Assembly (NCBI GenBank): GCA_026398895.1
Contig: JAPLRZ010000060.1
Coordinates: 1-64,000, forward strand
Direction: 5' to 3'
DNA from: Methylococcales bacterium
Lineage (GTDB): Bacteria > Pseudomonadota > Gammaproteobacteria > Methylococcales > Methylomonadaceae
Length of the DNA: 64,000 nucleotides
A program made the translations under genes and the position numbers. The notes below the pieces were generated by a model. The model was given only the letters and a program-made list of their open reading frames with translations, ran no database searches and was not told the DNA's origin. This document shows, in pieces, positions 4,641-47,542 of the stretch (the first letter of the stretch is position 1; each line of letters begins with the position of its first letter).

Positions 4641-5078
4641 TGTAACCGTTAAATATTGAAAATTTCCCAAAGCCGCGTTGAGTAAGGTTTCTGCTGTGAG
4701 TTGGCGGTGTTTTTCAAGAGCGTGTCGCCAACCGAGGTAGTTTGCTAGGTAGTCAGTAGCGACACCATGAAAACCCTCAAGCCATTGTTTAAAGCGACCG
4801 TGATAAGCATTGACATTCTGTATGTGGTAAGCACCGTTCACCTGCTGTCCTTTGCTGAGGTTAACCACTTCATGACTGATGTTTTCGCTATGGCAAAACG
4901 CCTCGTAAGTCGGGTTGGCATCACTGATTAACAGCACGTCACGCAAACCTGTTCGTTACTGATGCCTGGTTTGGTGGCTGTACCGCCACGCTTTCGCGAC
5001 TTGCGAGCTAGATTTTTCTTGCCTTTATCCGATTCGAGAATAGGGGTTTCATCCACTTCAGTAATGCCATGCAGCATT
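4638..5078 (-). pseudogene. IS1595-family (ISXO2-like) transposase remnant
   Basis: The minus-strand ORF 4946-4638 carries the C-terminal half of an ISXO2-like DDE transposase (LLISDANPTYEAF, NVNAYHGRFKQWLEGFHGVATDYLANYL). The preceding part, EVDETPILESDKGKKN then RKRGG and GISNEQVCV, is in another frame at about 4940-5078, so there is at least one frameshift near 4935-4945. The N-terminal zinc-binding domain is missing. It overlaps the end of the IS1 fragment, so one element probably landed in the other. Confidence 0.75.
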
Positions 5079-5142
5079 GATGTGGCTACACTAAACAGGA
5101 CACTTTTCTATAAAATCATTGAAAAGACCTGAGATTACTTAT

Positions 5143-5376
5143 ATGACAACCCAAGCCAAACAAAAATACACCGCTGAATTTAAAGAGAATGCAGTAAAGC
5201 GAGCGAATGAATCGAGCAATGTGGCGGAGACAGCCCGTGAGTTGGGGATAAAAGAGAATACGTTGACTAACTGGGTTTATCAGTATAGTGGCTCACTCAA
5301 GCCAGACAAGGCAGTACGAACCGATGAACATTTGTACGATGAGCTGACTGGATGCTGTTTAGTGGAGGAACGATGA
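5143..5376 (+). pseudogene. IS3-family OrfA fragment
   Basis: Starting at ATG 5143, 77 residues begin with KQKYTAEFKENAVKRA, then the helix-turn-helix ETARELGIKENTLTNWVYQY of IS3/IS911 OrfA. An upstream in-frame start at 5119 also exists. The ORF diverges after SLKPDKAV and ends without the leucine-zipper region or any OrfB, so this is a truncated left end. It is the third IS type in about 1 kb. Confidence 0.7.
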
Positions 5377-5411
5377 AACACTAGATAACATTGTCAACCA
5401 CAAGTATTATA

Positions 5412-5456
5412 GCGATAATCTTATGAGCTATTGCTATCCTGCCGTGCTTTTCGTAG
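5412..5456 (+). repeat. 45-bp repeat, exact inverted copy at 16550-16594
   Basis: The sequence starting GCGATAATCTTATGAGC and ending CTTTTCGTAG is identical over all 45 bases to the reverse complement of 16550-16594. It lies in the gap between the IS3 fragment and pgi. The match does not extend into the flanks on either side. Confidence 0.9.
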
Positions 5457-5492
5457 ACTTAGAGAAATTTAACCTAAGCGGAGTCTAACACT

Positions 5493-7130
5493 ATGTCATC
5501 TTTGATTCATTCAAGCGCGTGGATTGCCTTACAAGACCATTATCAGCAAATTAAAGACAAGCTGTTGCGTGACGCTTTTAAGCAGGATACCCAACGATTT
5601 AATAAGTTTTCTGTGACCTTTAATGATATTTTGTTTGACTACTCCAAAAATAGAATCAACGATGAAACCTTGCCTTTATTGATAGCCCTTGCCAATGATG
5701 CGAACTTAGGTACGAAAATCAAAGCCATGTTTGCGGGTGAAAAAATCAATATCACCGAACACCGTGCCGTGCTACATACCGCCTTGCGTAATCGCAGTAA
5801 TCAACCTGTTTATGTTGACGGGCAAGATGTTATGCCAGACATTAACCGCGTGTTAGCAAAAATGCGCGTGTTTTGTGAGTGTGTTCGTTCTGGCGAATGG
5901 AAAGGTTACACAGGCAAAGCTATCACCGATGTGGTTAATATCGGTATTGGTGGCTCTGGTTTAGGGCCCAAAATGGTCTCTATGACTCTGACACCTTATA
6001 GTTCAGAAAGCTTAAAAGTTCACTATGTTTCTAATGTTGACCAAACAAATATTGTTGAAGTCTTACAAAAAGTCGATGCTGAAACCACACTTTTCATTAT
6101 CGCCTCCAAAGTATTTTCCACCCAAGAAACCATGTTGAACGCCAAATCAGCCAAAAACTGGTTTCTTGACCACGCCAAAGACCCCGCCGCTGTTGCCAAA
6201 CATTTTGTCGCCATTTCCACTCATGCGGAAAATGTCGCCAACTTTGGCATAGACACCAACAATATGTTTGAATTTTGGGATTGGGTCGGCGGGCGTTATT
6301 CGTTGTGGTCGGCTGTGGGCTTATCGATTGCTTTATACATAGGCATGGATAAATTTGAAGAGTTATTACAAGGTGCGTTTGAAGCCGATCAACATTTTTT
6401 AACTACTCCGTTTGAAAAAAATATCCCTGTAATTATGGGCTTGTTAGGTATTTGGTATAATAATTTTTTCGATGCTGATTCGCACGCCTTACTGCCTTAC
6501 GATCAATCCATGCGTTATTTTGCCGATTATTTTCAACAAGGCGATATGGAAAGTAACGGTAAAAGTGTTGATATGAACGGCGAAAAAGTCGATTACAGCA
6601 CGGGACCCATTATTTGGGGACAACCTGGAACAAATGGTCAACACGCCTTTTTTCAATTGATTCATCAAGGCACAAAACTCATTCCCTGTGATTTTCTTGC
6701 CGCTGCCAACAGCCATTATCCGCTGCCCGAACACCACGATATTTTAATTTCCAACTTCCTAGCGCAAACCCAAGCCTTGATGCAGGGTAAAACTGTCGAA
6801 GAAGTAATCTCCCAATCAACGCCCGAAGAACGCGCTGATGCAGTGCTTATTGCCTCTAAAGTGTTTGCAGGTAACAAGCCATCCAATTCATTCTTGTTTG
6901 AAAAAATGACACCTAAAACGCTAGGCACGTTATTGGCGTTTTATGAACATAAAATTTTTGTCCAAGGTGTGGTGTGGAATATCAATCCCTTTGACCAGTG
7001 GGGCGTAGAACTAGGCAAAGTATTGGCAAACGTTATTTTGCCACAACTCCAAAACGACGACCTTATCGACAGTCATGATTGCTCAACCAACGCGCTGATC
7101 AACGCTTACAAACGTTTACGGCAGGCTTGA
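5493..7130 (+). CDS. pgi: Glucose-6-phosphate isomerase
   Basis: A 545-residue cytoplasmic enzyme interconverting glucose-6-phosphate and fructose-6-phosphate, full length for the bacterial family. Visible signatures are [26 protein letters not shown] (the central SIS/PGI pattern), [16 protein letters not shown], and the C-terminal [13 protein letters not shown] with its catalytic-region glutamate. A GCGGAG ribosome site precedes ATG 5493. The MntA gene starts only 28 nt after the stop. In this genome it would feed the PPi-phosphofructokinase at 47730 and the oxidative branch ending in gnd at 41780. Confidence 0.97.
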
Positions 7131-7158
7131 TAATGTGCCGCTTCGGAGTTTAAAAATA

Positions 7159-7467
7159 ATGACTGATAAAATTAAACTCCGCCCTTCCCTTGCATTAGAA
7201 CTTCACCGTGACAGCATTCGTGAAATCGCCCTACGCCATCGCGTTAAAAATGTGCGTGTGTTTGGTTCAGTGCTACACGGTGATGACACCGAAGACAGCG
7301 ATTTGGATTTGTTGGTTGATCCAACTTCTGAAACTACGTTGATGGATATTGGTGCAATTCGCTATGAACTAAAAGAATTACTTGGTATATCGGTAGATGT
7401 ATTGACACCAAAAGCACTGCCTGATCATTTTAGAAACCTTGTACTAACCGAGGCAACACCGATATGA
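7159..7467 (+). CDS. mntA: MntA-type nucleotidyltransferase antitoxin
   Basis: 102 residues from ATG 7159; a GTG at 7135 in the same frame would add eight residues but lies almost on the pgi stop. It shows the minimal nucleotidyltransferase signature GS-x10-DxD (G36, S37, D48, D50). In HEPN/MNT systems MntA neutralises HepT by adding AMP to the tyrosine of the toxin's RX4HXY motif. Its stop overlaps the start of hepT by four bases, as expected for a coupled pair. The assignment is secure by motif and neighbour. Confidence 0.9.
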   Translation: MTDKIKLRPSLALELHRDSIREIALRHRVKNVRVFGSVLHGDDTEDSDLDLLVDPTSETTLMDIGAIRYELKELLGISVDVLTPKALPDHFRNLVLTEATPI

Positions 7468-7817
7468 GTAAATCCGATGTTTTGCGTTTGTCAGATTATT
7501 TAGGGCATATTTTCCTAGCCATTGAGCGCATTTATCGCTACATAGAAAATATGGATGAAGTCGCTTTTTTGCAGGACGAAAAAACCCAAGATGCTGTTAT
7601 CCGTAATTTTGAAATCATTGGTGAAGCCGCCAGCAATATCAAACGCTATCACGCTGAATTTGCGCGTCAGCATTCGGACATTAAGTTCAACTTTGCCTAC
7701 GAAATGCGTAACGCTCTCGCTCACGGTTATTTCAAAGTTGATTTAGAAATCGTTTGGCGAACCATACACCAAGATTTACCAGAACTTCATGAGCAAGTAC
7801 GTTTATTGATTCAGTAG
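7464..7817 (+). CDS. hepT: HepT-type HEPN ribonuclease toxin
   Basis: 117 residues, all-helical HEPN domain (DUF86). The catalytic RX4HXY motif is visible as RNALAHGY with R82, H87 and Y89; the Tyr is the target of AMPylation by the partner. NFEIIGEAASNIK is also typical of the family. The start ATG overlaps the mntA stop. Family members cut tRNA or other RNA when released from the antitoxin. All key residues are present, so the module looks functional. Confidence 0.92.
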   Translation: MSKSDVLRLSDYLGHIFLAIERIYRYIENMDEVAFLQDEKTQDAVIRNFEIIGEAASNIKRYHAEFARQHSDIKFNFAYEMRNALAHGYFKVDLEIVWRTIHQDLPELHEQVRLLIQ

Positions 7818-7822
7818 TTGCG

Positions 7823-7906
7823 TAGCCTGTGTGGAGCGTAGCGGAACACGGGGAACAGCGACATAATCACGAAAGCCCCGCATTCCGCAAGCTTCATGCG
7901 GGCTAC
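7823..7906. repeat. Palindromic intergenic repeat
   Basis: The ends GTAGCC (7823) and GGCTAC (7901) are inverted. The inside holds imperfectly paired arms (TGGAGCGTAGCGGAAC... against ...GCATTCCGCAAGCTTCAT), as in dispersed palindromic repeats found between genes. It lies between hepT and the glutaredoxin fusion and could also act as a transcription end. Confidence 0.5.
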
Positions 7907-7944
7907 TTGCTAAACTACTTTCTCTACTTATCGGGAAAATAACT

Positions 7945-9135
7945 ATGTCAAAAGCAATATCTACGCTATTTATCATTAGATGGTTTTTACTTAGGCTATT
8001 GATAGTCGTATTTAGTTTTTCTTCAGTTTGTATAGCTTCAGAGACCGCTGATATTGAGGTATTTGTTCGTCAAGGTTGTCCGCATTGTGCGAAGGCAGAA
8101 GTCTTTTTACAAACATTACAACAAGAACAACCCACGTTAAAAATCGTCATTCATGATGTATCGCAAGAATCTACTGCACTGGAACGCTTACAAGAACTGG
8201 CTAAAAATCAGGGAATAAAAAGCGTGCGTGTGCCTGCGTTTCAAATCAAAGGACAATTGCTGATTGGTTACACCGATGAAACCAGTTCAGGGCAGTTAAT
8301 TCGTGATGTGTTAGCACAAACGCCTGTTATTCCAAAAAATGAAAACAGCACAGGCAGTTGTGAAGCGGATGAACAGGCTTTATCCTGCGAAGCGAATCCA
8401 CCGCCACAAACTTTCGCGGTGAATTTTTTGGGTCATAAAATATCGCTAGAAAACGTGGGCTTGCCATTATTCACCATTACAATGGGCTTATTGGATGGTT
8501 TTAATCCGTGTTCACTGTGGGTGTTATTATTGGTTATTTCATTACTGGCACCGATGAATAACAGACCGCGTATGTTAGCCATTGCAGGGACATTTGTTGC
8601 AGTTGAAGGCATTGCCTATTTTGTCTTTATGGCGGCATGGTTAAATCTATTTTTGCTGATTGGTCTTTCGCGTATTTCAGAAGTCGCAATTGCCCTGATT
8701 GCCTTAATAGCGGGCATGATTAATCTTAAAGATTTTTGGCGATTCGGCTGGGGCGTTAGTTTGTCTATTCCTAATGCCGCAAAACCTGCCATTTATACCC
8801 GCATACGCAACATTCTTCAGGCAAAAAATATGACTGCCGCAATTATCGGTGCAATCGTGTTGGCGGTGTTAGTGCAAATTGTAGAATTTATGTGTACCTC
8901 TGGTTTTCCTGCTTTGTACACGCGAATTTTAACCCTGAAACAACTGGATAATGTCAGTTATTACAGTTATTTACTGCTTTATAATCTAGCCTATATGCTT
9001 GATGACTTAATCGTTTTATCAGTAGGTGTTATCACCCTAAGCCAACACAGACTACAAGAAAAAGAAGGTCGCTGGCTTAAGTTAATCAGCGGTTTAACGA
9101 TGGTTGGGCTAGGCATTTATTTACTGGTAGCGTAG
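7945..9135 (+). CDS. Glutaredoxin-like domain fused to a CcdA/DsbD-type membrane domain
   Basis: 396 residues. An N-terminal hydrophobic segment (about 11-30) is followed by a thioredoxin-fold domain with C45-P-H-C48 (QGCPHCAKAEVF) and the cis-proline region VRVPAFQIKG. From about residue 165 several membrane helices follow. Two carry single cysteines in CcdA-like contexts (GFNPCSLWVLLL, EFMCTSGFP), the pair that would pass electrons across the membrane. The likely role is moving reducing power to periplasmic thiols or to cytochrome/copper-site maturation. The redox domain precedes the membrane domain. It sits directly upstream of sdhB, probably by chance. Confidence 0.8.
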   Translation: MSKAISTLFIIRWFLLRLLIVVFSFSSVCIASETADIEVFVRQGCPHCAKAEVFLQTLQQEQPTLKIVIHDVSQESTALERLQELAKNQGIKSVRVPAFQIKGQLLIGYTDETSSGQLIRDVLAQTPVIPKNENSTGSCEADEQALSCEANPPPQTFAVNFLGHKISLENVGLPLFTITMGLLDGFNPCSLWVLLLVISLLAPMNNRPRMLAIAGTFVAVEGIAYFVFMAAWLNLFLLIGLSRISEVAIALIALIAGMINLKDFWRFGWGVSLSIPNAAKPAIYTRIRNILQAKNMTAAIIGAIVLAVLVQIVEFMCTSGFPALYTRILTLKQLDNVSYYSYLLLYNLAYMLDDLIVLSVGVITLSQHRLQEKEGRWLKLISGLTMVGLGIYLLVA

Positions 9136-9954: not shown

Positions 9955-10157
9955 ACGAACTGGCAAAACTAAAGTGGCAGTGTCGGCGTGGTATGAAAGA
10001 GCTGGATTTATTACTGGAAAATTATCTAGCTACCGATTATTTACTCGCCGACACTGCCGAAAAAGCGCGATTTGTTGAGTTATTAGCGTTGGAAGATGAT
10101 GAATTGTTGGTAGTTTTGACCCAGAGCGATTGGCGCAAGCTAAGCGTAGAAAATTAG
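9951..10157 (+). CDS. sdhE: SdhE, FAD assembly factor for succinate dehydrogenase
   Basis: 68 residues from GTG 9951, overlapping the sdhB stop (GTGA). It has the conserved RGMKE motif ([16 protein letters not shown]) that interacts with SdhA during flavinylation, and the typical C-terminal DWRKL region ([11 protein letters not shown]). The four-base overlap indicates translational coupling with sdhB, and the pairing with sdhB is common in proteobacteria. Confidence 0.9.
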
Positions 10158-10609: not shown

Positions 10610-11818
10610 ATGAAAATAAAATCAATTTCTTTTGAAAATTACAAAGCTTTTTTTAAAAAGCAAAAAATGGAATTAAGACCAATTACTATACTTATTGGTA
10701 AAAATAGTTCAGGAAAAAGCTCTATTGCTAAGCTTTTTACTCTACTCGAAAACTCTCTTTCTGGTTTAATAGATGAACCATTATTATTAAAAAATAACAA
10801 TGTTGAATTAGGAGGAGAGTTTGATAATTTATTCTATAATAATAAAAGTGGCGGTTATCCATTAAAACTATCCATTGAGTATAAAGATAAAACTTTAGAG
10901 GTTTCTTTGGCACCAAAACCAGTTAAATATGGCTTGTATATTCATCAATGGGAATATAAGGATGATAAAATCAATATTAATATTGAAGAAAAAGAGGAGC
11001 GCAAGGGTATTTACGTTGATTTTAATACTAAAAAAGAAGAATATAAATGTAAATTCAAAGGATTTTGTCCAACCGAATTAATTGATAATAAATCTTATGA
11101 TATAAGCAAAGATATTAAAATAGAGAGTATAGATGTGGATTACATTGGTCCTTTTAGAATACTACCTGATAGAATGTTTCACTTGTCAGGAAAAACAATC
11201 TTTCATAATACTGGAATAGCAGGGGAAAATGCTTATGCTATGCTTGCTATAAGCTACCTTGACAAAACGGAACTGCATGAAAAAGTTGGCGAATGGTATC
11301 AAAAATATTTTAATGGATGGCAATTAAAGGTTAATAATAAAAGACCTTACTTTGAAATACTGCTTTCTAAGAATAATACAGATGTCAATATTGTCGATGT
11401 TGGTCAAGGTATGAATCAAGCGTTGCCGCTGGTAGTACGCGCTAATATTAAGAAAGAAAATTCTATTATCGTGTTAGAGCAGCCAGAATTACATCTACAT
11501 CCTGCCGCACATGGTGATTTGATGCAGCTATTCGCAAAGTCAGCTAAAGAAAATAATCAAACCTTTATTATTGAAACGCACTCTGAAAATATGCTTCTGC
11601 GTTTGCGTAGACTGATAGTTGAAAATACAGATTTTTCTTTTACCAAAGAAGATGTAATTATTTATTGGGTAGTAGATCATGAAGAGCAAGAACAAGGGCA
11701 AGAACTTAGAGAAATTACTATTAACGATGACGGTGAGTTAAGTTATTGGCCCGCTGGAGTCTTTAATGAAAATATTAAAGAATTATTTGCCATTGATAAC
11801 GCATTAACGAAAAAATAA
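10610..11818 (+). CDS. OLD/RecF-like AAA ATPase of a candidate defence operon
   Basis: 402 residues from ATG 10610 (MKIKSISFENYKAF); an in-frame ATG at 10577 adds eleven residues but the second start fits the family. The Walker A motif is GKNSSGKSS at 30-38. Near residue 270 is an ABC-type signature (DVGQGMNQALPLVV). Next come Walker B (IIVLEQPELHLHP) and the H-loop region (FIIETHSENMLLRLRRL). The layout, including LHLHPAAHGDL, is that of ATPases linked to nucleases in OLD, Gabija and PARIS-type immunity, often with a DUF3696-like tail. It carries no fused nuclease. The next gene starts six bases after its stop. Codon use is much more AT-rich than in sdhB. Confidence 0.85.
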   Translation: MKIKSISFENYKAFFKKQKMELRPITILIGKNSSGKSSIAKLFTLLENSLSGLIDEPLLLKNNNVELGGEFDNLFYNNKSGGYPLKLSIEYKDKTLEVSLAPKPVKYGLYIHQWEYKDDKININIEEKEERKGIYVDFNTKKEEYKCKFKGFCPTELIDNKSYDISKDIKIESIDVDYIGPFRILPDRMFHLSGKTIFHNTGIAGENAYAMLAISYLDKTELHEKVGEWYQKYFNGWQLKVNNKRPYFEILLSKNNTDVNIVDVGQGMNQALPLVVRANIKKENSIIVLEQPELHLHPAAHGDLMQLFAKSAKENNQTFIIETHSENMLLRLRRLIVENTDFSFTKEDVIIYWVVDHEEQEQGQELREITINDDGELSYWPAGVFNENIKELFAIDNALTKK

Positions 11819-11824
11819 TAAATT

Positions 11825-12904
11825 ATGATTCTACAATTTAATCCCACTGTATTTAATAGTCAAGATGATGAAATCAACGATGGAATTATAAAATTGTTAG
11901 ATTGTTTTATGGAAGACCGTTTTATTATAGACTTTATGGGAACTGGTTTAGTGAGTATTTTTTATGACAGTCAAGGTAATTATATATTTGAAAATTCAAA
12001 ATTATCTCAATATATTCTACCAACTAAGGTCAAGAAATTAGAAGGTAAAATAAAGGCGTTAATCAGTAGCGGTAGCAGCTTATCCACGCTAACTAAATTT
12101 TACTTAACTAAAATAATAGTAGGTGTTCAAGAAAATGAATTACATCCGCAAAATGTCGTTAAAATAATCGAGCAACGCTCATTGATTGTCATTGAAAACA
12201 ATCCCAATGATTGGTATTTTATAACTGGAATCATAGATAAATATCAACATTTTGGTGAAAGAAGAGAAATATACAGTCTTATAAAAAAAGCAATGGACAA
12301 ATACTATTTACATTACGATCACGCTGGTGGTAGCAGTATCAAAGCTCAAATAGAGGGCTGGATTAATGGTGTTTATACTGATTTTTATCAATATAAATTA
12401 ATGGCTATTTTTGATAGTGATAAAAAACATCAAAACGACTTTAAGAAAGAATATAAGAATTTAATAGAGTTTATTAAAAATAAATCTATTAGTATTCCAC
12501 CAAGTTCTAATGATTTGGAACATGAATTAAGCGATAAAATTGTATGGCACATATTATACAAAAGAGCTTTAGAAAACTATATACCTGTTAGGGTAATAAA
12601 AACAGAAATAAGAAATTTAACTCAACAGCATAAAGATAATTTAGATAAATTAGCTGTTTCACCTTCTGATATGGATTTTATTGTTTATCATAAACCTGAA
12701 GGTTTAGATAAACAGTATTATATAAGTATTGGAAAAAATGAAGCTAAAGAAGATTTTCCTAAAATGTTTCTAACCAATTTTTCAGCCAGCGAATTAGAGC
12801 AGCGGTGCGCACATCACAAAGTTGACATAGAGTTACCAAACGGTACATTAGAACAAGTTTCAGAAATGGAACAAATTTTACTTAAGATTGCGAAAATAAT
12901 TTAG
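11825..12904 (+). CDS. Unknown protein with TOPRIM-like motif pattern (candidate nuclease)
   Basis: 359 residues, no confident family. A TOPRIM-like residue order can be read: hydrophobic strand then E124 (LIVIENNPNDWYFI), a Gly-Gly turn (AGGSSIKAQIEG, 168-169), a hydrophobic strand ending D197-x-D199 (LMAIFDSDK), and later HILYKRALENYIP (K246, R247, E250, N251, Y252). That last pattern resembles the conserved ending seen in OLD-type and AriB-like TOPRIM nucleases. If right, this is the effector nuclease paired in trans with the ATPase, a split OLD arrangement. The first 110 residues are unlike anything I recognise. It lies in the middle of the operon, six and two bases from its neighbours. 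Confidence 0.6.
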   Translation: MILQFNPTVFNSQDDEINDGIIKLLDCFMEDRFIIDFMGTGLVSIFYDSQGNYIFENSKLSQYILPTKVKKLEGKIKALISSGSSLSTLTKFYLTKIIVGVQENELHPQNVVKIIEQRSLIVIENNPNDWYFITGIIDKYQHFGERREIYSLIKKAMDKYYLHYDHAGGSSIKAQIEGWINGVYTDFYQYKLMAIFDSDKKHQNDFKKEYKNLIEFIKNKSISIPPSSNDLEHELSDKIVWHILYKRALENYIPVRVIKTEIRNLTQQHKDNLDKLAVSPSDMDFIVYHKPEGLDKQYYISIGKNEAKEDFPKMFLTNFSASELEQRCAHHKVDIELPNGTLEQVSEMEQILLKIAKII

Positions 12905-12906
12905 TT

Positions 12907-14484
12907 ATGAATGACAAAATTAGTGTGAAGCCTGATGCCACACATCTTGATGATTTGTTGCAAGATGTAAAAAATGGCAAATATAAAATTCCGAAATTTC
13001 AAAGAGATTTTGTTTGGACTCCAGACCAAATGCTAGAGCTGTTCGACAGCATATTAAAAGGCTACCCTATTGGCAGTTTATTGTTTTGGGAGACATCAGA
13101 TGTCTTTAAATGTAAAGAAGAAGTTGGTTGTTTTGTCGTAAAAGAAACAGCAAAAAGTTACAGTTATATATTGGATGGTGTTCAGCGTATATCTACTCTA
13201 TTTGGAACATTGATGAATCCAAAGAGTTTTGATAGCGATATTATTGCACCTGATAAAAAAGATTTTCTTATCTATTTCGATATTAAAGAAAATGTATTTA
13301 TTTATGCAAAAAGTAAAAAAACTAAAACTGTTTTTTTAGCTCCTCTTTACGAAATTTATGATAACAAGGAATTATTTAATCTATTTCGTAAATTAAATAA
13401 TGAAAATATTACTGACATTGACAAAGAAAAGTATTTTGAAAATGCAAGGGACTTGCACGATATTTTACATAAATATAGATTGCCATTTGTAGAAATAAAA
13501 GGTGGAGATATAAAAAGCTCAATAGATATTTTTAAAAGAATTAATTCCACAGGACAAGAAATTTCTATGGATTTTATGCTATCGGCATTAAATTATAATG
13601 ATGACTCTGGTTTTACGTTTAGTGATGTTATTTCAGATTTTTTAGACAACTTAAATAAGTATAATTTTCAAAATATAAAAAGAGATACCATAATAAATTG
13701 CATTGCAAGTTCAAGAGGAAAAATATATTTTGACATAAAAAGCTTAGAGCTTGAGTTAAAAGATGATTTAGAAAACAGATCATCGCAATCTTTTATTTTT
13801 ATTGAAAAGGCAATAAGTTTTTTATATAAAAAATTATATGTTTTAGATATAGGATTATTACCTTATCCTACACAACTAAACTTTATTTACGAATATTTTA
13901 GAGTAAATCCTAATCCTAGTGATGAAGAATTAAAAAAGTTGGAGAACTGGTTTTGGATTACAACGTATTCTAACTATTTTACTATATATTCTCTGAGCCA
14001 ACAAAGAGCAGCATACAATACATTTAAAGAGTTTTCCGTAAAAATGCACTGCGATGGAATTTATAAAGATGATAAAAAAGAACAATTTTCAACGGCTAAA
14101 TTCCCAAAAAAAGTTGCGCGTAACAGTGTAAGAGCCAAAGTTATTCAGCTTTTTATGTTAAAACAAATAAGCAGTGATATTCAATTTAATGAATCTATTA
14201 AAGAACAATTTATTTTTCCATTGAAAAACGATAGAACAAGAACTCCTGCTAATATGATTTTACGATTGGGTTCAGAATTTGAAAAAGATAAAGATAAAAA
14301 AGATATTTCTTATTTTATAAAAAATTCAGATGCACAAACCTTAGAAAAATATTTTATTAATGAAAAAATAAAAAAATTGTATATAGATGGTAAGGTCGAA
14401 GAATTTATAAAGGCAAGAGAACAATTAATTCAAGAAAAAGAAAAGGAATTTGTAAATAGTTTAGGTATAACTTACATAAATTAG
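12907..14484 (+). CDS. DUF262-domain protein (GmrSD/ParB-like fold) of the candidate defence operon
   Basis: 525 residues. The N-terminal DUF262 signature is clear: IPKFQRDFVW at 28-37, GYPIGSLLFWE at 52-62, and ILDGVQRISTL at 88-98. In GmrS/BrxU-type proteins the last motif is usually DGQQR; here Gln is replaced by Val. The family also shows FKRINSTGQEIS, present near residue 210. I see no His-rich DUF1524/HNH nuclease at the C-terminus, which ends in a charged coiled-coil-like stretch. DUF262 proteins use nucleotides and are common in anti-phage modules. The start lies two bases after the previous stop. Confidence 0.85.
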   Translation: MNDKISVKPDATHLDDLLQDVKNGKYKIPKFQRDFVWTPDQMLELFDSILKGYPIGSLLFWETSDVFKCKEEVGCFVVKETAKSYSYILDGVQRISTLFGTLMNPKSFDSDIIAPDKKDFLIYFDIKENVFIYAKSKKTKTVFLAPLYEIYDNKELFNLFRKLNNENITDIDKEKYFENARDLHDILHKYRLPFVEIKGGDIKSSIDIFKRINSTGQEISMDFMLSALNYNDDSGFTFSDVISDFLDNLNKYNFQNIKRDTIINCIASSRGKIYFDIKSLELELKDDLENRSSQSFIFIEKAISFLYKKLYVLDIGLLPYPTQLNFIYEYFRVNPNPSDEELKKLENWFWITTYSNYFTIYSLSQQRAAYNTFKEFSVKMHCDGIYKDDKKEQFSTAKFPKKVARNSVRAKVIQLFMLKQISSDIQFNESIKEQFIFPLKNDRTRTPANMILRLGSEFEKDKDKKDISYFIKNSDAQTLEKYFINEKIKKLYIDGKVEEFIKAREQLIQEKEKEFVNSLGITYIN

Positions 14485-14565: not shown

Positions 14566-14661
14566 GCCGACCACATCAGCGCGTTACGCACCCAAGCCAA
14601 ACAGTTACAACAACAAGCCGCAGCTGAACTGGCACACGCAAAACAGCACGTTGAACACCTG
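14566..14661 (+). pseudogene. Remnant of a type I specificity (HsdS) C-terminus, copy 1
   Basis: The frame reads ADHISALRTQAKQLQQQ followed by AAAELAHAKQHVEHL, the coiled-coil tail common at the end of HsdS proteins. There is no start or upstream body. A near-identical copy lies at 15835. The antitoxin gene at 14678 begins 17 bases after this remnant, so the TA module sits immediately after an hsdS end. Confidence 0.65.
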
Positions 14662-14677
14662 AGTCCAGAGAATAACA

Positions 14678-14899
14678 ATGCAAACACAAAAATTAACTAA
14701 CTTACAATTAGAGTTATTAAAAGTATTCAGTTACCAACTTAATCAACAGCAATTAACGGATATAAAAAAACTACTTGCCAATTACTTTGCTGAGCAAGCT
14801 ACCCAAGAAATGGATAAACTTTGGGAAGAAAATAATTGGGATAACAATACAATGACAACGTGGGCAAATGAACATTTAAGAATTCCTTATAAATCATGA
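14678..14899 (+). CDS. Small antitoxin paired with PIN toxin
   Basis: 73 residues, mostly helical (LTNLQLELLKVFSYQLNQQQL, with LLANYFAEQATQEMDKLWE). It matches the general layout of short antitoxins that precede PIN toxins. Its ATG region (GAGAATAACAATGCAA) is nearly identical to that of the antitoxin at 15343, though the rest of the two proteins differs. Its stop overlaps the start of the toxin by four bases (ATGA). Confidence 0.7.
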   Translation: MQTQKLTNLQLELLKVFSYQLNQQQLTDIKKLLANYFAEQATQEMDKLWEENNWDNNTMTTWANEHLRIPYKS

Positions 14900-15297
14900 G
14901 AGTTGTTTTAGATACCAATATTCTATTAGTGTCCATTGCTAAAAAATCGCCTTATCGCATTATATTCGATGCTTTATTGGCAAATAAGTTTGAGTTAATT
15001 ATCAGTAATGACATACTAAGTGAATATGCAGAAATAATTGCACAAAAAACAAATAACATGATTGCTACAAATATCTGTGAAATGTTATTAAGTTTATCGA
15101 ATGTCAAAAAACAGGAGGTATTTTATAAATGGAATTTTATTGATATAGATAAAGACGATAACAAGTTTGTCGATTGTGCCATTGCTGGCAATGCCGACTA
15201 TTTGGTGAGCAATGATAAGCATTTTAATTGCTTGAAAAAAATAGAATTTCCAAAATTAAATTTATTGACCATTGATGAATTTATGGTGTTACTTTAA
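14896..15297 (+). CDS. PIN-domain ribonuclease toxin
   Basis: 133 residues. PIN-domain acidic residues are visible: D6 in MRVVLDTNILL, E45 or nearby in DILSEYAEI, and the later D-x-x-D cluster DKDDNKFVDCAIAGNADYLVSNDKHF. This belongs to the group of putative toxins with RVVLDTNIL starts. It overlaps the antitoxin stop, so the two are co-translated. All catalytic acids appear present, so it is likely intact. Confidence 0.88.
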   Translation: MRVVLDTNILLVSIAKKSPYRIIFDALLANKFELIISNDILSEYAEIIAQKTNNMIATNICEMLLSLSNVKKQEVFYKWNFIDIDKDDNKFVDCAIAGNADYLVSNDKHFNCLKKIEFPKLNLLTIDEFMVLL

Positions 15298-15834: not shown

Positions 15835-15945
15835 ACGTTACGCACCCAAGCCAAGCAGCTACAACAACAAGCCGCCGCTGAGTTGGCACACGCAAAACAG
15901 CAGGTTGAAAACAGGGAAAGGCTAAAACCTTTGGTGCTAGTTTAA
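15835..15945 (+). pseudogene. Remnant of a type I specificity (HsdS) C-terminus, copy 2
   Basis: The frame reads TLRTQAKQLQQQ then AAAELAHAKQQVEN, nearly the same as the copy at 14566 (about 70 of 77 bases match by eye). The frame runs into the MITE-like element, which supplies the stop at 15943. The two copies are direct repeats enclosing the PIN and RelE-type modules. Confidence 0.65.
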
Positions 15946-16138: not shown

Positions 16139-16477
16139 TCAAAAGGTTGATGAGTTGTGGGTAATCGTGTGAATTAAGGTGGGGCTTTGTAAGTCGCTGT
16201 ATAAGCGGTCTAAAGCGGCGGTGAATTTAGCGTTTAGGCTGTTGAAGTGTTGTATGTCAAGATAAGGATGGTCTTCACTGGCATCACATAAGCCTTGAAA
16301 AATAGTTTTCCAATACTGTTCTATTTGTTTGACGTGTTCAGTTAGTTGACTGAAAATATTAGTGTGCTGTGCTGTGCTGTGCTGTGCTGTGCTGTGCTGT
16401 GCTGTGCTGTGCTGTGCTGTGCTGTGCTGTGCTGTGCTGTTTCGTGGCATTTCATTAGTGTTTTTCCTTGAAACCAA
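16139..16477 (-). CDS. Unknown 112-residue protein carrying a pentanucleotide repeat
   Basis: Unrecognised. After MVSRKNTNEMPRN the protein has five copies of the pentapeptide STAQH, the translation of a 5-bp DNA repeat. A non-repetitive helical part follows (FSQLTEHVKQIEQYWKTIF, then HPYLDIQHFNSLNAKF). Because the unit is five bases, gain or loss of one copy changes the frame, so the ORF can be switched. It may be the surviving end of a larger gene rather than a full gene: the start lies only 37 bases before the repeat and the stop abuts the MITE. Confidence 0.45.
   Translation of the reverse strand: MVSRKNTNEMPRNSTAQHSTAQHSTAQHSTAQHSTAQHTNIFSQLTEHVKQIEQYWKTIFQGLCDASEDHPYLDIQHFNSLNAKFTAALDRLYSDLQSPTLIHTITHNSSTF
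16366..16440. repeat. Pentanucleotide microsatellite, 15 perfect copies of GCTGT
   Basis: Fifteen uninterrupted GCTGT units (ACAGC on the minus strand) with partial flanking units. It lies near the 5' end of the minus-strand ORF at 16139-16477. Perfect long arrays of this type mutate by strand slippage and are used for phase variation in Neisseria and Haemophilus genes. Confidence 0.95.
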
Positions 16478-43675: not shown

Positions 43676-43946
43676 GGCTAAATCTTCCTGTGGTTAATCT
43701 AAATTTAATTTGTTGCCGTGTGGTGGCGTGAATCGTGATAGGTGTTATTGAATTTTCTGTTTCTTCATAGGGAATCATCACTAATTTATTATTGTGATCT
43801 CCAATGACGACATAACGACAGCTTTCAGAATCAACATAGCGTTCTGGTGAATAGCGGATAATTTTTTCGATTAGATTTAAATTAAAACCGCGTAATTCGG
43901 CTCTATATTTTAGGTAATCAGTAAAAATTAAAGTTTTATCAGTCAT
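43668..43946 (-). CDS. DUF4258-like small protein, probable toxin
   Basis: 92 residues, beginning LIFTDYLKYRAELRGFNL, then IEKIIRYSPERYVD and YVVIGDHNNKLVMIPYEE, ending TTRQQIKFRLTTGRF. This layout fits DUF4258/BrnT-like toxins that pair with DUF2283. Its ATG overlaps the stop of the upstream R-M gene (ATGA), so the whole minus-strand unit is translationally coupled. Confidence 0.7.
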   Translation of the reverse strand: MTDKTLIFTDYLKYRAELRGFNLNLIEKIIRYSPERYVDSESCRYVVIGDHNNKLVMIPYEETENSITPITIHATTRQQIKFRLTTGRFSHE

Positions 43947-46900
43947 AGTAGATAATCCAGCGCGGTTTGTTCGTCGGTTTCTATGGCGAGTTCAACGGCG
44001 CGTTTTGCGGTGGCTAATAACTGTTCGCTTTGGGCTTTTAGGGTGAAGCTTTGTTGTATTAGGGTGGCGATTTTTGTTTGAGTTTCTATAGGTAATCTTG
44101 GAATTAAAATAGATTTTAAAGCGGGATGATTAATCTCTGGTTGAACACCGCCATTACTATTTTTAATAATCTGAAGTTTACCCGCAGTTGATTGTAAAAA
44201 AAACGCTAGATAATAAGGATTTATTTCAACGTCATTAATTCTTAGAATAATTAAATGTGAGCTGATTAAAGCATGAACCCACTGCTTTTCTATAATACAA
44301 GTTACGCCTAAACTACCTGAACGAGACATTAAAACATCACCTTCTTGTAACTTAACTTTAGACATAAGGGAATTAGCCGCTTCGGAATTTACAAAAACAA
44401 GAGATGATTCGTTAATTTGTAGTTGTTTTAAATCGCCGATTCTCAAATAGGGTGTACCGCTTTCACAATACTCTCTTATTTCAACGCCATTTGTTGGATT
44501 TGGGCAAATTTCGCCTAATGTTGAAAATCCCTTTTCCTCGTTCCCACGCGCTGCGTGGGAATGCAGTGTTAGACGCGCCGCGTCTCGCACCGCAGGCGCG
44601 GTGCTGTATTCATTCCCACGCAGCGCGTGGGAACGAGAGGGTGTGTAGGTTTTTATTTTCTGTTCCAGTTCGTCATATTTAGGTTGGTAGTATTCCGCAT
44701 CTAAGCGACCAGTGGCAATAAAGGAATCTTTGAAGGATTTGATATTGATATTTTCGGTGCTGGGTGAAAAATCCGCCATGCCTAGCGCGTTGAGTAGTAG
44801 GGTTTCTGCACTTATATAAATATTCTTCGATTGTTCTAAGGCATCAAGAGATAAATTGGTAAAATTTTTTATTTTACTTTGAAAACTTATCGAAGGTTTA
44901 AAAACAGGAATTGTTTTTATATAGTCTAAACTTACAAGTGGCTGCGCATTACCAGTATTCATCCTGATATATAAACTTTTGCCATAGCTAGAACATAAAT
45001 AAATGTGCAAATACTCATTAATAAATTCTTTGCTGTTAGAGCGAATTAACACAACATTTCTTACGATATTGGCAATGCCAATATCATCTGGAACAATCGC
45101 AGCATAACCTATATTCGCTCCAACACAGCTAATCAAAACATCTCTAGGAATTAATGAACTTTTCTTCAATTTTTTGTGATGCTCCTCTGAAATATATTCA
45201 ACGTTGTTATCACTCAGAACTCCAGATAAAACATTCCTTGCTCCGTAGTATTTTGAATATCCAATTTCTGATGTTATTGCATTACCATGTTCACCATCTG
45301 TGATAAAAGCAATATCTCCTAGAAACTCGTTATTTTTCGATAAAATTTTGTTATAAATTTCTGTGTAATACTTTTGAAAAAATTCTGGGTCAATTCTCCC
45401 ATTAAAAAATGGCTTGAAAGCTTCACTCTTTTGAATAATTGAAATCTCCAACCTCTCCAACAACGCCCGATATTTCACTTCATCAAAAAGCCGTTCGCAC
45501 TGAGCTTGTCGAAGTGTGAACGACTCAGCCGCCCGTGGTTCGACAAGCTCACCACGAACGGCTGTATCAAAAAAACTTAGGTTTTCCTTCTTAGCAAATT
45601 CAATAAAGGCTTCGGCAATTCCATCTTGCGTTAGCCCATCATGATTAAATAAATCATGCTTAACAATCAAATGTTCATGAGTATCTAATAACGGCGAACC
45701 ATCGGCTTGCGCGACATATATTTTATCGCCTGAATTATCTTTGCTGGATTCCTGCATGGTGGCAAAGAATATCGGGTAATCGTCCACTTTAGGACAAAGT
45801 GTGTCATCCCATTTCTGCACCAATAACACGCTGGTTTTTGTCCCTGTGTGCGGTTTAAATACATTACCGTGTAAACCCACCACCGCTAATATTCGGCAAC
45901 GCTCGGCAATATATTCACGGATTTGTTTATCGCTGGAATTATTAAAACGCCCTTGCGGTAATACTACCGCCATACGCCCACCTGCTTTTAAAAAACTTAA
46001 GTTGCATTCAATAAATAATATATCGCGTCCAACAGCAGTTTGATATTTACCGTTGTCTTTTTTACCTAGCTCATATTTAGCTAAAATACGGGTTTCTTTT
46101 ATATCACCTGCAAACGGTGGATTTGCCATTAATACATAAAATTGAAAATCACGATTGCTATTTTTATCGCTGCGTAATTTGCGTAATTTCTTCCAGCCTT
46201 CGCCGTAAATATCTAACCAGTTTTCATCTTTGGTTTTTTCATCCCAGCGTTCATAATCGAGCGTATTTAAATGTAAAACATTAGTTTGTCCATCCCCTGC
46301 AATTAAATTAAGAGTACGCCCGACACGCACGGCTTTTTCATCAAAATCAATGGCAAAAACTTTATTCTGCACATAATCAATACAACGCGCTGGTTTTTGT
46401 TCAGCAGTGAATAAATGGTTTTTGGTTAGCCCTTCGGATTTTAATATCGCTTCCCAGACATGGAATATACCATGCACAGGAAAACCGCACGAACCTGCGG
46501 CAGTATCTATTAAGGTTTCATGCTCTTGTGGATTAAGCATTTTAACGCACATATCAATGACATAACGCGGGGTGAAATACTGCCCTTTTTCACCTTTGCT
46601 GGATTTATTTATTAGGTATTCAAAGGCTTCATCAACCACGTCTAAATTAGAATTAAACAGCATGACGGATTCTAAAGAAGCGATACAGACTGATAAATGA
46701 CTGGGTGTTAATTGTAATTTAGCATCATCAGTAAATACGCCTTCCCATTTACCGCGTGCTTTATCAAATAAATCTTGAATTTTGGCTTTTAATTCGGTTT
46801 CAGTATCGCCATAGTTTCTAAACACCAAATGTTTTTTTCTATCACGCCAGCTTTCCATTTCATCATAGAGTTTGGTGAAAATTAATTTGAATAATTCTTC

Positions 46901-47542
46901 AAAAACATCAACGCCCGCATTGGCTAATACTTCATCTTCCATTTCGAGAATTAAATCTTTCAGCGATTTTTTTTCTTTAACCAGTTTATTAAGACTTCTT
47001 AAATCATCAATCGTCCAGCGTGCGGATAATACATCGGATAATTTTTCTAACGCGGTGGGGATTCTGGGTATATCTTCAAAATAATTCGGGTCTTTACGCT
47101 GATAATAAGAAATTGAATCGCCATTTGTCCAAACGCCCATTGGTGCGCCTGTGGCATTGCAATAACTTTTTAATTGGTCTTTACCGTCTTTGTGTTTGGG
47201 TTTTTTAAGCTCAATTAAAATATACGGTACGGTGGGGCGGTCTTTATCGAATATACAAATATCAGCGCGTTTAGTTTCTCGTCCAAAAGTAACGCCATAT
47301 TCAATCGCTATTCTATTAATTGGATATTTAAAATCATCAATTAAGACCATTAAATATAACTGGCGCACGACTTCTTCTGGCGTGAGTTTTATTTCTTTAC
47401 CACGCACTAAGCAGACAATATACGGTGTGGCTTTATCGCGGATTTGTTTAATGATGATGCTGTTTTCTAAGGCGTGAATTTGTACAGGGGTAAATTGGGT
47501 GAGTTTGTAGGCGGAATCTTTGAGGAGTTCGGTAAGTGTCAT
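43943..47542 (-). CDS. Single-chain restriction-methylation-specificity protein (type I/IIG-like)
   Basis: 1,199 residues. Residues 1-150 form an HSDR_N-type PD-(D/E)xK nuclease (D94, E111-L-K113 in IELKKP). Residues about 280-640 are an N6-adenine methyltransferase (KGQYFTPRYV at 319-328, DTAAGSCGF at 346-354, NPPF at 474-477). Two HsdS-like target-recognition regions follow, about 690-940 and 1010-1180, ending in QSEQLLATAKRAVELAIE. Two palindromic DNA repeats are embedded in frame near 660-684 and 967-1002, in the linkers before each recognition region. It would cut and methylate at a bipartite site. It starts an overlapping unit with two small downstream genes. Confidence 0.85.
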   Translation of the reverse strand: MTLTELLKDSAYKLTQFTPVQIHALENSIIIKQIRDKATPYIVCLVRGKEIKLTPEEVVRQLYLMVLIDDFKYPINRIAIEYGVTFGRETKRADICIFDKDRPTVPYILIELKKPKHKDGKDQLKSYCNATGAPMGVWTNGDSISYYQRKDPNYFEDIPRIPTALEKLSDVLSARWTIDDLRSLNKLVKEKKSLKDLILEMEDEVLANAGVDVFEELFKLIFTKLYDEMESWRDRKKHLVFRNYGDTETELKAKIQDLFDKARGKWEGVFTDDAKLQLTPSHLSVCIASLESVMLFNSNLDVVDEAFEYLINKSSKGEKGQYFTPRYVIDMCVKMLNPQEHETLIDTAAGSCGFPVHGIFHVWEAILKSEGLTKNHLFTAEQKPARCIDYVQNKVFAIDFDEKAVRVGRTLNLIAGDGQTNVLHLNTLDYERWDEKTKDENWLDIYGEGWKKLRKLRSDKNSNRDFQFYVLMANPPFAGDIKETRILAKYELGKKDNGKYQTAVGRDILFIECNLSFLKAGGRMAVVLPQGRFNNSSDKQIREYIAERCRILAVVGLHGNVFKPHTGTKTSVLLVQKWDDTLCPKVDDYPIFFATMQESSKDNSGDKIYVAQADGSPLLDTHEHLIVKHDLFNHDGLTQDGIAEAFIEFAKKENLSFFDTAVRGELVEPRAAESFTLRQAQCERLFDEVKYRALLERLEISIIQKSEAFKPFFNGRIDPEFFQKYYTEIYNKILSKNNEFLGDIAFITDGEHGNAITSEIGYSKYYGARNVLSGVLSDNNVEYISEEHHKKLKKSSLIPRDVLISCVGANIGYAAIVPDDIGIANIVRNVVLIRSNSKEFINEYLHIYLCSSYGKSLYIRMNTGNAQPLVSLDYIKTIPVFKPSISFQSKIKNFTNLSLDALEQSKNIYISAETLLLNALGMADFSPSTENINIKSFKDSFIATGRLDAEYYQPKYDELEQKIKTYTPSRSHALRGNEYSTAPAVRDAARLTLHSHAARGNEEKGFSTLGEICPNPTNGVEIREYCESGTPYLRIGDLKQLQINESSLVFVNSEAANSLMSKVKLQEGDVLMSRSGSLGVTCIIEKQWVHALISSHLIILRINDVEINPYYLAFFLQSTAGKLQIIKNSNGGVQPEINHPALKSILIPRLPIETQTKIATLIQQSFTLKAQSEQLLATAKRAVELAIETDEQTALDYLL
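44537..44640. repeat. Palindromic repeat inside the R-M gene (second linker)
   Basis: CCTCGTTCCCACGCGCTGCG at the left is mirrored by CGCAGCGCGTGGGAACGAG at the right, with a GC-rich middle (CGCGCC...GGCGCG). It is read in frame as SRSHALRGNEYST, then TLHSHAARGNEE. The local G+C far exceeds that of the flanking gene. Confidence 0.9.
45490..45562. repeat. Palindromic repeat of the GAGCTTGTCGAA family inside the R-M gene
   Basis: GCCGTTCGCACTGAGCTTG at the left and CAAGCTCACCACGAACGGC at the right; the same family as 29482, 34602 and 38491. It is read in frame as AVRGELVEPRAAESFTLRQ followed by AQCERLF, between methyltransferase and first recognition region. Confidence 0.9.

Follow-up and report, generated by a model that had tools for sequence, protein, structure and literature searches.

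A three-gene operon of an OLD-type ATPase, a TOPRIM protein, and a nuclease-dead GmrSD/BrxU-type protein in a Methylococcales bacterium: a candidate anti-phage system

The stretch of DNA examined here, called the window, comprises 64,000 nucleotides of a Methylococcales bacterium (contig JAPLRZ010000060.1), and its positions 10,610 to 14,484 carry an operon of three genes, designated A, B, and C. On balance, the three products probably form an anti-phage system: C, a nuclease-dead sensor, would license a split OLD nuclease made of A and B. The new point of the analysis is that, judged by alignment, the C proteins of such three-gene loci (trios) have lost the HNH nuclease motif, which most of their relatives outside trios retain. 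The three genes are as follows.

10610 to 11818, forward strand: gene A, 402 amino acids (aa), ABC ATPase of the OLD/RecF type, DUF3696 segment at the C-terminus
11825 to 12904, forward strand: gene B, 359 aa, predicted TOPRIM nuclease resembling a detached OLD C-terminal region
12907 to 14484, forward strand: gene C, 525 aa, GmrSD/BrxU-type protein with an eroded DUF1524 region

Protein C matches the Pfam family GmrSD_N (PF03235) at 1.3e-30, and no other Pfam family is matched at E up to 1, so that no DUF1524 domain is found by this search. The predicted model of C, with a predicted local distance difference test score (pLDDT) of 82, aligns with BrxU (7p9k) over residues 7–519, where the Z score is 17.7 with 471 aligned residues and a root-mean-square deviation (rmsd) of 16.5; the large rmsd probably results from a differing placement of the domains. 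The alignments with DndI and SspE both give a Z score of 9.9, with 414 and 307 aligned residues, respectively. C extends beyond DUF262, being BrxU-like over nearly its full length, but the C-terminal catalytic motif is gone.

BrxU cuts through its C-terminal DHIYP motif; the substitutions D474A and H475A stop the cutting of DNA and spare ATP hydrolysis, and Q101A and R102A leave the nucleotide bound but not hydrolyzed (PMC8565348). With BrxU itself as the reference, the DHIYP (HNH) motif was found in window C neither by alignment nor by pattern, and it is present in none of the 12 trio C proteins. Among the 17 relatives of C outside trios, 11 from a search of the taxonomic class and 6 from opened plasmid records, it is present in 14 by alignment and in 12 by the strict pattern. 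One motif of the nucleotide site in window C is the following.

13174 to 13188, forward strand: D90-G-V-Q-R94 of gene C, equivalent of the BrxU DGQQR motif, with V for the first Q

In window C, L45-F-D-S48, D90, Q93, and R94 are retained, where Q93 and R94 are the equivalents of Q101 and R102 of BrxU, and the R of RLFDS and the first Q of DGQQR are changed to E and V, respectively. The D, the second Q, and the R of DGQQR are kept in all 12 trio C proteins, and the first Q is changed in 10 of them (H in 6, Y in 2, V in 1, F in 1; Q is kept in 2), while the motif is intact in 17/17 of the non-trio relatives. A preliminary description of the operon, made from its letters, had named a DUF262 protein with DGVQR and no HNH motif, which agrees with these results; DGVQR lies at residues 90–94. 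Since the fold and most residues of the nucleotide site are kept and the HNH motif is lost, C is most likely a nucleotide-driven sensor that does not cut, beside a split OLD nuclease composed of A and B.

In a tree of 30 C-type proteins, trio membership needs 2 changes, compared with a mean of 9.6 after shuffling, and 22% of 200 bootstrap trees require one change. Because the trio C proteins cluster in this tree, the loss of the HNH motif probably represents one or two events, not twelve. The Fisher values of 1e-5 for the HNH motif by alignment and 8e-6 for DGQQR (computed for 11 trio proteins, before the inclusion of L048, the Flectobacillus trio) are not probabilities, the trio C proteins being clustered.

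Protein B carries the residues expected of a TOPRIM domain, at the positions listed below.

12194 to 12196, forward strand: TOPRIM glutamate E124 of gene B, followed by D129; E and D kept in 12/12 B proteins
12413 to 12421, forward strand: D197-S-D199 of gene B, the TOPRIM DxD; DSD in 11/11 B proteins reaching the site
12560 to 12586, forward strand: KRALENYIP of gene B; R-x-x-E-[NS]-Y-x-P in 11/11 B proteins reaching the site

The TOPRIM motif consists of an invariant E, a glycine after strand 2, and DxD, and in OLD the glutamate and the DxD pair are metal-site residues (PMC6755086). The glycine after strand 2 is present in B as G168-G169, and in the alignment with a fused OLD protein KRALENYIP stands opposite TKKREAENYL. 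The counts exclude L044, a plasmid locus whose B gene is split by an IS1 element, and, past residue 153, L025, where the contig ends. The comparison of B with the TOPRIM part of the fused OLD proteins by hhalign gives a probability of 97.0% (E 9e-11) and spans E, GG, DSD, and KRExENYL; that with a second, two-gene ATPase-TOPRIM family gives 98.8% (E 1.2e-16). For the predicted model of B (pLDDT 71; predicted template modeling score, pTM, 0.73), the top Foldseek match is the C-terminal region of Burkholderia pseudomallei OLD (6nk8; E 6.2e-3, prob 1.00). In VIA-align, four OLD C-terminal regions rank highest with Z scores of 9.4–10.6, where B aligns with residues 391–593 of 6nk8 at 10.6 (179 aligned residues, rmsd 4.0). 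B is therefore supported as a predicted TOPRIM nuclease by motif, profile, and modeled fold. The three motifs had been pointed out in the preliminary description, which proposed structure prediction as a check, and they prove to be conserved in a protein whose predicted fold is the expected one.

Searches by direct sequence comparison were less productive. Window B is highly divergent, with 15–24% identity to nine other members. The Pfam TOPRIM family matches none of 10 B proteins, a sequence search of the Protein Data Bank with B gave nothing convincing (best E 0.16), tblastn of B against plasmids gave no match, and a scan of genome contigs with this single protein gave no confirmed relative.

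Protein A matches AAA_15 (6e-27, 95.7 bits), AAA_21 (2.1e-15, 58 bits), and DUF3696 (9.1e-8), and the Pfam search assigns it neither a TOPRIM domain nor any other nuclease domain. The OLD/RecF-like ATPase claimed at the outset is thus present, with the following two motifs.

10697 to 10720, forward strand: Walker A, GKNSSGKS, of gene A; G-x-N-x-x-G-K-S in 13/13 A proteins
11477 to 11503, forward strand: E-[QE]-P-E-L-H-[LI]-H-P of gene A (EQPELHLHP in the window); strict pattern in 11/13 A proteins, missing from L049 and L061

The second motif is taken by us as the Walker B region. In PADLOC-DB 2.0.0, A matches PDC-M55A at 6.6e-78, ahead of NsnB (6.2e-54) and AriA (4e-30).

The trio recurs well beyond the window. 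A scan with the A alignment gave at least 53 relatives of A in genome contigs; among the 53 listed, 6 are followed by B and C in order, 5 by B only, and 42 by neither according to the profiles. The six trios belong to Flectobacillus (L048), Chitinophaga (L049), Planomonospora (L050), a Desulfatibacillum metagenome-assembled genome (L051), Frankia (L052), and Azospirillum (L061). In viral contigs, 34 relatives of A comprise 2 trios (L121, L122), 24 A-B pairs, and 8 solitary A genes. C matches 168 plasmid records, 10 of which were opened overall; the nine opened for their neighbors gave three trios, in Nonomuraea (L039), Paracoccus yeei (L040), and Leclercia (L044). The total is 12 trios including the window, spread over four phyla, plasmids, and viral contigs, and a TOPRIM nuclease gene adjoins C in each of them, broken in one. 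Among phage records, C matches 6 and A matches 16, none covering more than 80% of the query, and no near copy of L122 was found in Escherichia coli genomes.

The order of the genes is constant, and in the 10 trios that are complete and unbroken, with L044 (broken B) and L048 (C in two frames) omitted, the genes are spaced by −11 to +13 bases. In the same 10 trios, the pairwise distances computed for A, for B, and for C are correlated with r of 0.83–0.88, a value that none of 5000 shuffles reached, although shared host ancestry would contribute to this correlation. The recurrence of the trio in the same order across phyla is far beyond chance.

The class-level search with PDC-M55C matched 12 of 369 genomes including that of the window, and in the 11 others A is not adjacent to C (one locus, L029, begins 740 bases from its contig end). 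The order-level search with PDC-M55B matched 7 of 301 genomes, again including that of the window. One of these, the same-genus genome G130, has A followed by B up to residue 153, where the contig ends; of the five others, three were read, namely two fused OLD-type proteins, L003 and L004, and L005, which can be aligned with the C-terminal part of these two.

Some relatives of A belong to a separate two-gene family, in which a long NsnB/AriA-like ATPase (~500–570 aa where whole) is followed by a TOPRIM partner of ~340–400 aa. It accounts for 24 of the 34 viral relatives of A (L123, L125–L131, L134–L142, L144–L150) and for 5 of the 53 listed in genomes (L084, L088, L089, L091, L092). The partners at L127 and L149 were compared with the PADLOC models and gave no match at 1e-5. 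ORF555-ORF333 of phage P2-EC5 (L170) has the same two-gene layout, and ORF555 matches A.

The arrangement is already catalogued. PADLOC-DB 2.0.0 contains a candidate, PDC-M55 (PDLC04707-04709), to whose models A, B, and C the adjacent genes correspond: beside the match of A given above, B matches PDC-M55B at 4.9e-13, over residues 110–277 only, and C matches PDC-M55C at 1.6e-89 (299 bits). PDC-M55B matches 10/10 B proteins, and PDC-M55C matches 9/9 C proteins scanned. We take PDC to stand for 'phage defence candidate'. PDC-M55 is a computational candidate, and since PADLOC-DB lists it, the trio arrangement is not new; a rule-based call could miss the window copy because B covers only part of the PDC-M55B model. 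No paper was found in which the name PDC-M55 occurs in the full text, within the open-licence PubMed Central (PMC) literature without preprints. Of the preliminary interpretation, the TOPRIM assignment of B and the co-occurrence of the three genes in other genomes stand, while the suggestion that the arrangement was undescribed does not.

Neighboring genes were scanned for defense functions at three trio loci. In L122, the trio (4974–8679) is flanked on one side by a gpA-type replication protein (PF05840, 1.7e-102) and on the other by a phage portal protein (PF04860), an interval reported as an anti-phage hotspot of P2-like phages (PMC9122126). The trio of L121 directly follows hsdS and hsdR, and that of L044 adjoins an integrase. 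The trio is likely to be a defense system.

The proposed mechanism builds on what sequences and predicted models show: the genes are conserved, B has the motifs and the fold of a TOPRIM protein, and C resembles BrxU in fold but has lost the nuclease motif. An anti-phage role, the holding of B by A, C as the sensor, and DNA as the target are what we infer from this. A would serve as the ATPase scaffold and B as the Mg-dependent TOPRIM cutter, the two together forming a split OLD nuclease, in which A presumably keeps B inactive. C would descend from type IV restriction enzymes of the GmrSD/BrxU type, its fold kept and its HNH motif lost; most likely it would be a sensor, driven by a nucleotide, that responds to phage DNA or another cue of infection and licenses the A-B nuclease to cut. 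C may sense modified phage DNA, as its relation to GmrSD and BrxU suggests, and the closeness of B to OLD suggests that B attacks DNA.

Several points weigh against this scheme. In PARIS, AriB, likewise a TOPRIM protein paired with an OLD-type ATPase, cleaves tRNA (PMC12409363), and hence the assignment of DNA as what B cuts is insecure. The loss of the HNH motif is not unique to trios, since 3 of the 17 non-trio relatives (L041, L045, L046) likewise lack it. The equivalent of BrxU Q100 is replaced in 10 of the 12 trio C proteins, and thus nucleotide hydrolysis may be altered or lost. The confidence of the B model is only moderate, and none of its 509 Foldseek matches reaches E 0.001. Below the OLD rows, retron Eco2 and GajA show Z scores of 6.4 and 6.3 (range 6.0–6.4), and unrelated lumazine synthases reach 6.1, so that only the OLD rows stand out. 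No phage assay or functional account of the trio was found in the open-licence literature described above.

A further reading that we regard as a serious possibility, somewhat short of an even chance, is a hand-over of the nuclease function. A type IV enzyme that lost its HNH motif would now switch a separate ATPase-TOPRIM nuclease through an altered nucleotide site, so that sensing and cutting reside in different proteins; the site reads DG[VHYF]QR in most trios. C-type sensors would then be interchangeable parts. On a Klebsiella pneumoniae plasmid (L041:3967-6560), a relative of C without the HNH motif directly follows putAbiC (PF16872, 4e-16); this pair perhaps joins another effector to the same kind of sensor and points toward the hand-over.

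It is also possible, though we consider it less likely, that the trio acts as a toxin-antitoxin system like PARIS, where A sequesters B until a phage product, perhaps an anti-restriction protein, frees B to cut host tRNA and abort the infection, and where C is a third regulator or co-inhibitor that responds to the nucleotide state, not to modified DNA. The match of A to AriA fits this possibility, as do the AriA rings, in which AriB is kept until Ocr is sensed (PMC11455837), and the tRNA cutting by AriB noted above. On the other side, B is without DUF4435 and matches neither AriB nor AriAB in PADLOC, its predicted fold is nearest to the DNA-cutting OLD C-terminal region, and no DUF262 member is named for PARIS in the parts of PMC9122126 and PMC11455837 drawn on here. 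AriB is not listed for B by VIA-align, which covers Foldseek matches only and so excludes nothing.

Decay of the window copy to an inactive locus is unlikely. The low identity of window B to the other members and the location of the operon in the AT-richest region of the window would agree with decay, but the three frames are open at full length, and all counted motifs of A and B are intact. Even less probable is that the trio is a divergent Menshen with the same mechanism. Both are three-gene DUF262/ATPase operons, A matches NsnB, the NsnA model hits C with 52.9 bits in the genome search, and 8/9 C family members match NsnA; however, the third genes appear unrelated by hhalign and by the NsnC models, the gene order differs, and C is longer than NsnA by ~150 aa. 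That C is a separate defense gene adjoining a split-OLD pair by chance is highly improbable: relatives of C without A are common (the 11 other matching genomes of the class) and A-B pairs with a longer A occur without C (the two-gene family), but trio membership is clustered in the tree of C-type proteins, the nuclease motif kept by most relatives outside trios is missing from the trio C proteins, and their distances follow those of A and B.

The preferred reading, with C as the sensor and B as the cutter, bears on a wider question. DUF262 proteins recur in defense systems, including GmrSD, BrxU, SspE, Menshen, Dazbog, and PD-T4-2, and the role of those without DUF1524 is left open in the part of PMC10952713 drawn on here. 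The trio provides a clean test case, a BrxU-fold protein without the nuclease motif beside a TOPRIM nuclease gene, and the loss of the motif makes the division of labor testable. If C senses and B cuts, the trio would show how sensors and cutters pass between type IV restriction and systems of the OLD/PARIS type.

The operon differs in composition from its surroundings. The gaps of 6 bases (A-B) and 2 bases (B-C) and the coordinates are those first reported, and the AT-richness relative to the sdh genes is evident: the GC content is 0.304, 0.284, and 0.267 in A, B, and C, compared with 0.456 in sdhB and 0.414 in the whole window. The value for the operon, 0.283, is the minimum for its length in a scan of the window in 100-base steps. 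The base composition suggests a foreign origin. The start of A at 10610 is preferred over 10577 and agrees with the starts of homologues. Upstream of the operon lies sdhB, and the sdh group is closed by a short gene at 10157, which we take to be sdhE. In the same-genus genomes G124, G226, and G271, similarity to the window ends at ~10110–10139, just past the sdhE-like gene, and in G130 it extends to 10417, shortly before the end of the contig. The similarity does not resume within the fetched pieces, and no empty insertion site was demonstrated in them. Scans for promoters (30 versus 34.5 in shuffled sequence) and terminators (4 versus 2.7) were at or near the shuffle level and were unused.

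Other features of the window include a 77-base imperfect direct repeat (91%) at 14582–14658 and 15836–15912, which brackets a PIN-domain toxin gene at 14896–15297 (TIGR00305, 3.4e-14) flanked by small ORFs. Slightly upstream of sdhB, at 7135–7817, a nucleotidyltransferase (PF01909) is paired with a HepT-like protein (PF01934), presumably an MNT-HEPN toxin-antitoxin module. A single 1199-aa protein at 43943–47542 with HSDR_N_2, N6_Mtase, and Methylase_S is a fused restriction-modification enzyme, and a minus-strand ORF at 16139–16477 contains 5-base CTGTG units at ~16363–16440, possibly a phase-variable tract.

Among the named systems, Menshen resembles the trio in having a DUF262 protein and an ATPase related to A, and at eight Menshen-type loci (L113–L120) the A and C profiles match the ATPase and DUF262 genes in 8/8. 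The B profile has no match there. NsnC shows no relation to the TOPRIM protein B: the hhalign probability against an alignment of six NsnC proteins is 0.2, the PADLOC NsnC models match 0/10 B proteins at E up to 0.1, and no NsnC was found in the window genome with one NsnC model. The order NsnA-NsnB-NsnC also differs from A-B-C. The identity with Menshen was rejected on the third gene and the gene order, not on the other two genes. The NsnA model, which hits C in the genome search, is not listed for C by hmmscan, and window C is the exception among the nine family members compared with NsnA at E up to 0.1. Two more DUF262 genes of the window genome match NsnA, at C43:10022-11032 (L026; 208.8 bits) and C31:34383-35480 (L027; 202.6 bits).

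PARIS likewise places an OLD-type ATPase beside a TOPRIM nuclease. The detection rule for PARIS combines an AAA_15 or AAA_21 ATPase with a DUF4435 partner (PMC9122126), and A matches both ATPase families, while DUF4435 matches neither window B nor any of the 10 B proteins; the identity with PARIS was rejected on this partner, and the trio has an extra DUF262 gene. OLD and GajA share the ATPase and TOPRIM parts, and B aligns with the OLD C-terminal region, but in the trio these parts are split into two proteins and C is added; in contrast to Gabija, Pfam shows no GajB-type helicase among the three genes. C resembles GmrSD, BrxU, SspE, and DndI in keeping most of the DUF262 nucleotide-site residues and differs from them in lacking the HNH catalytic motif and in the V that replaces the first Q of DGQQR.

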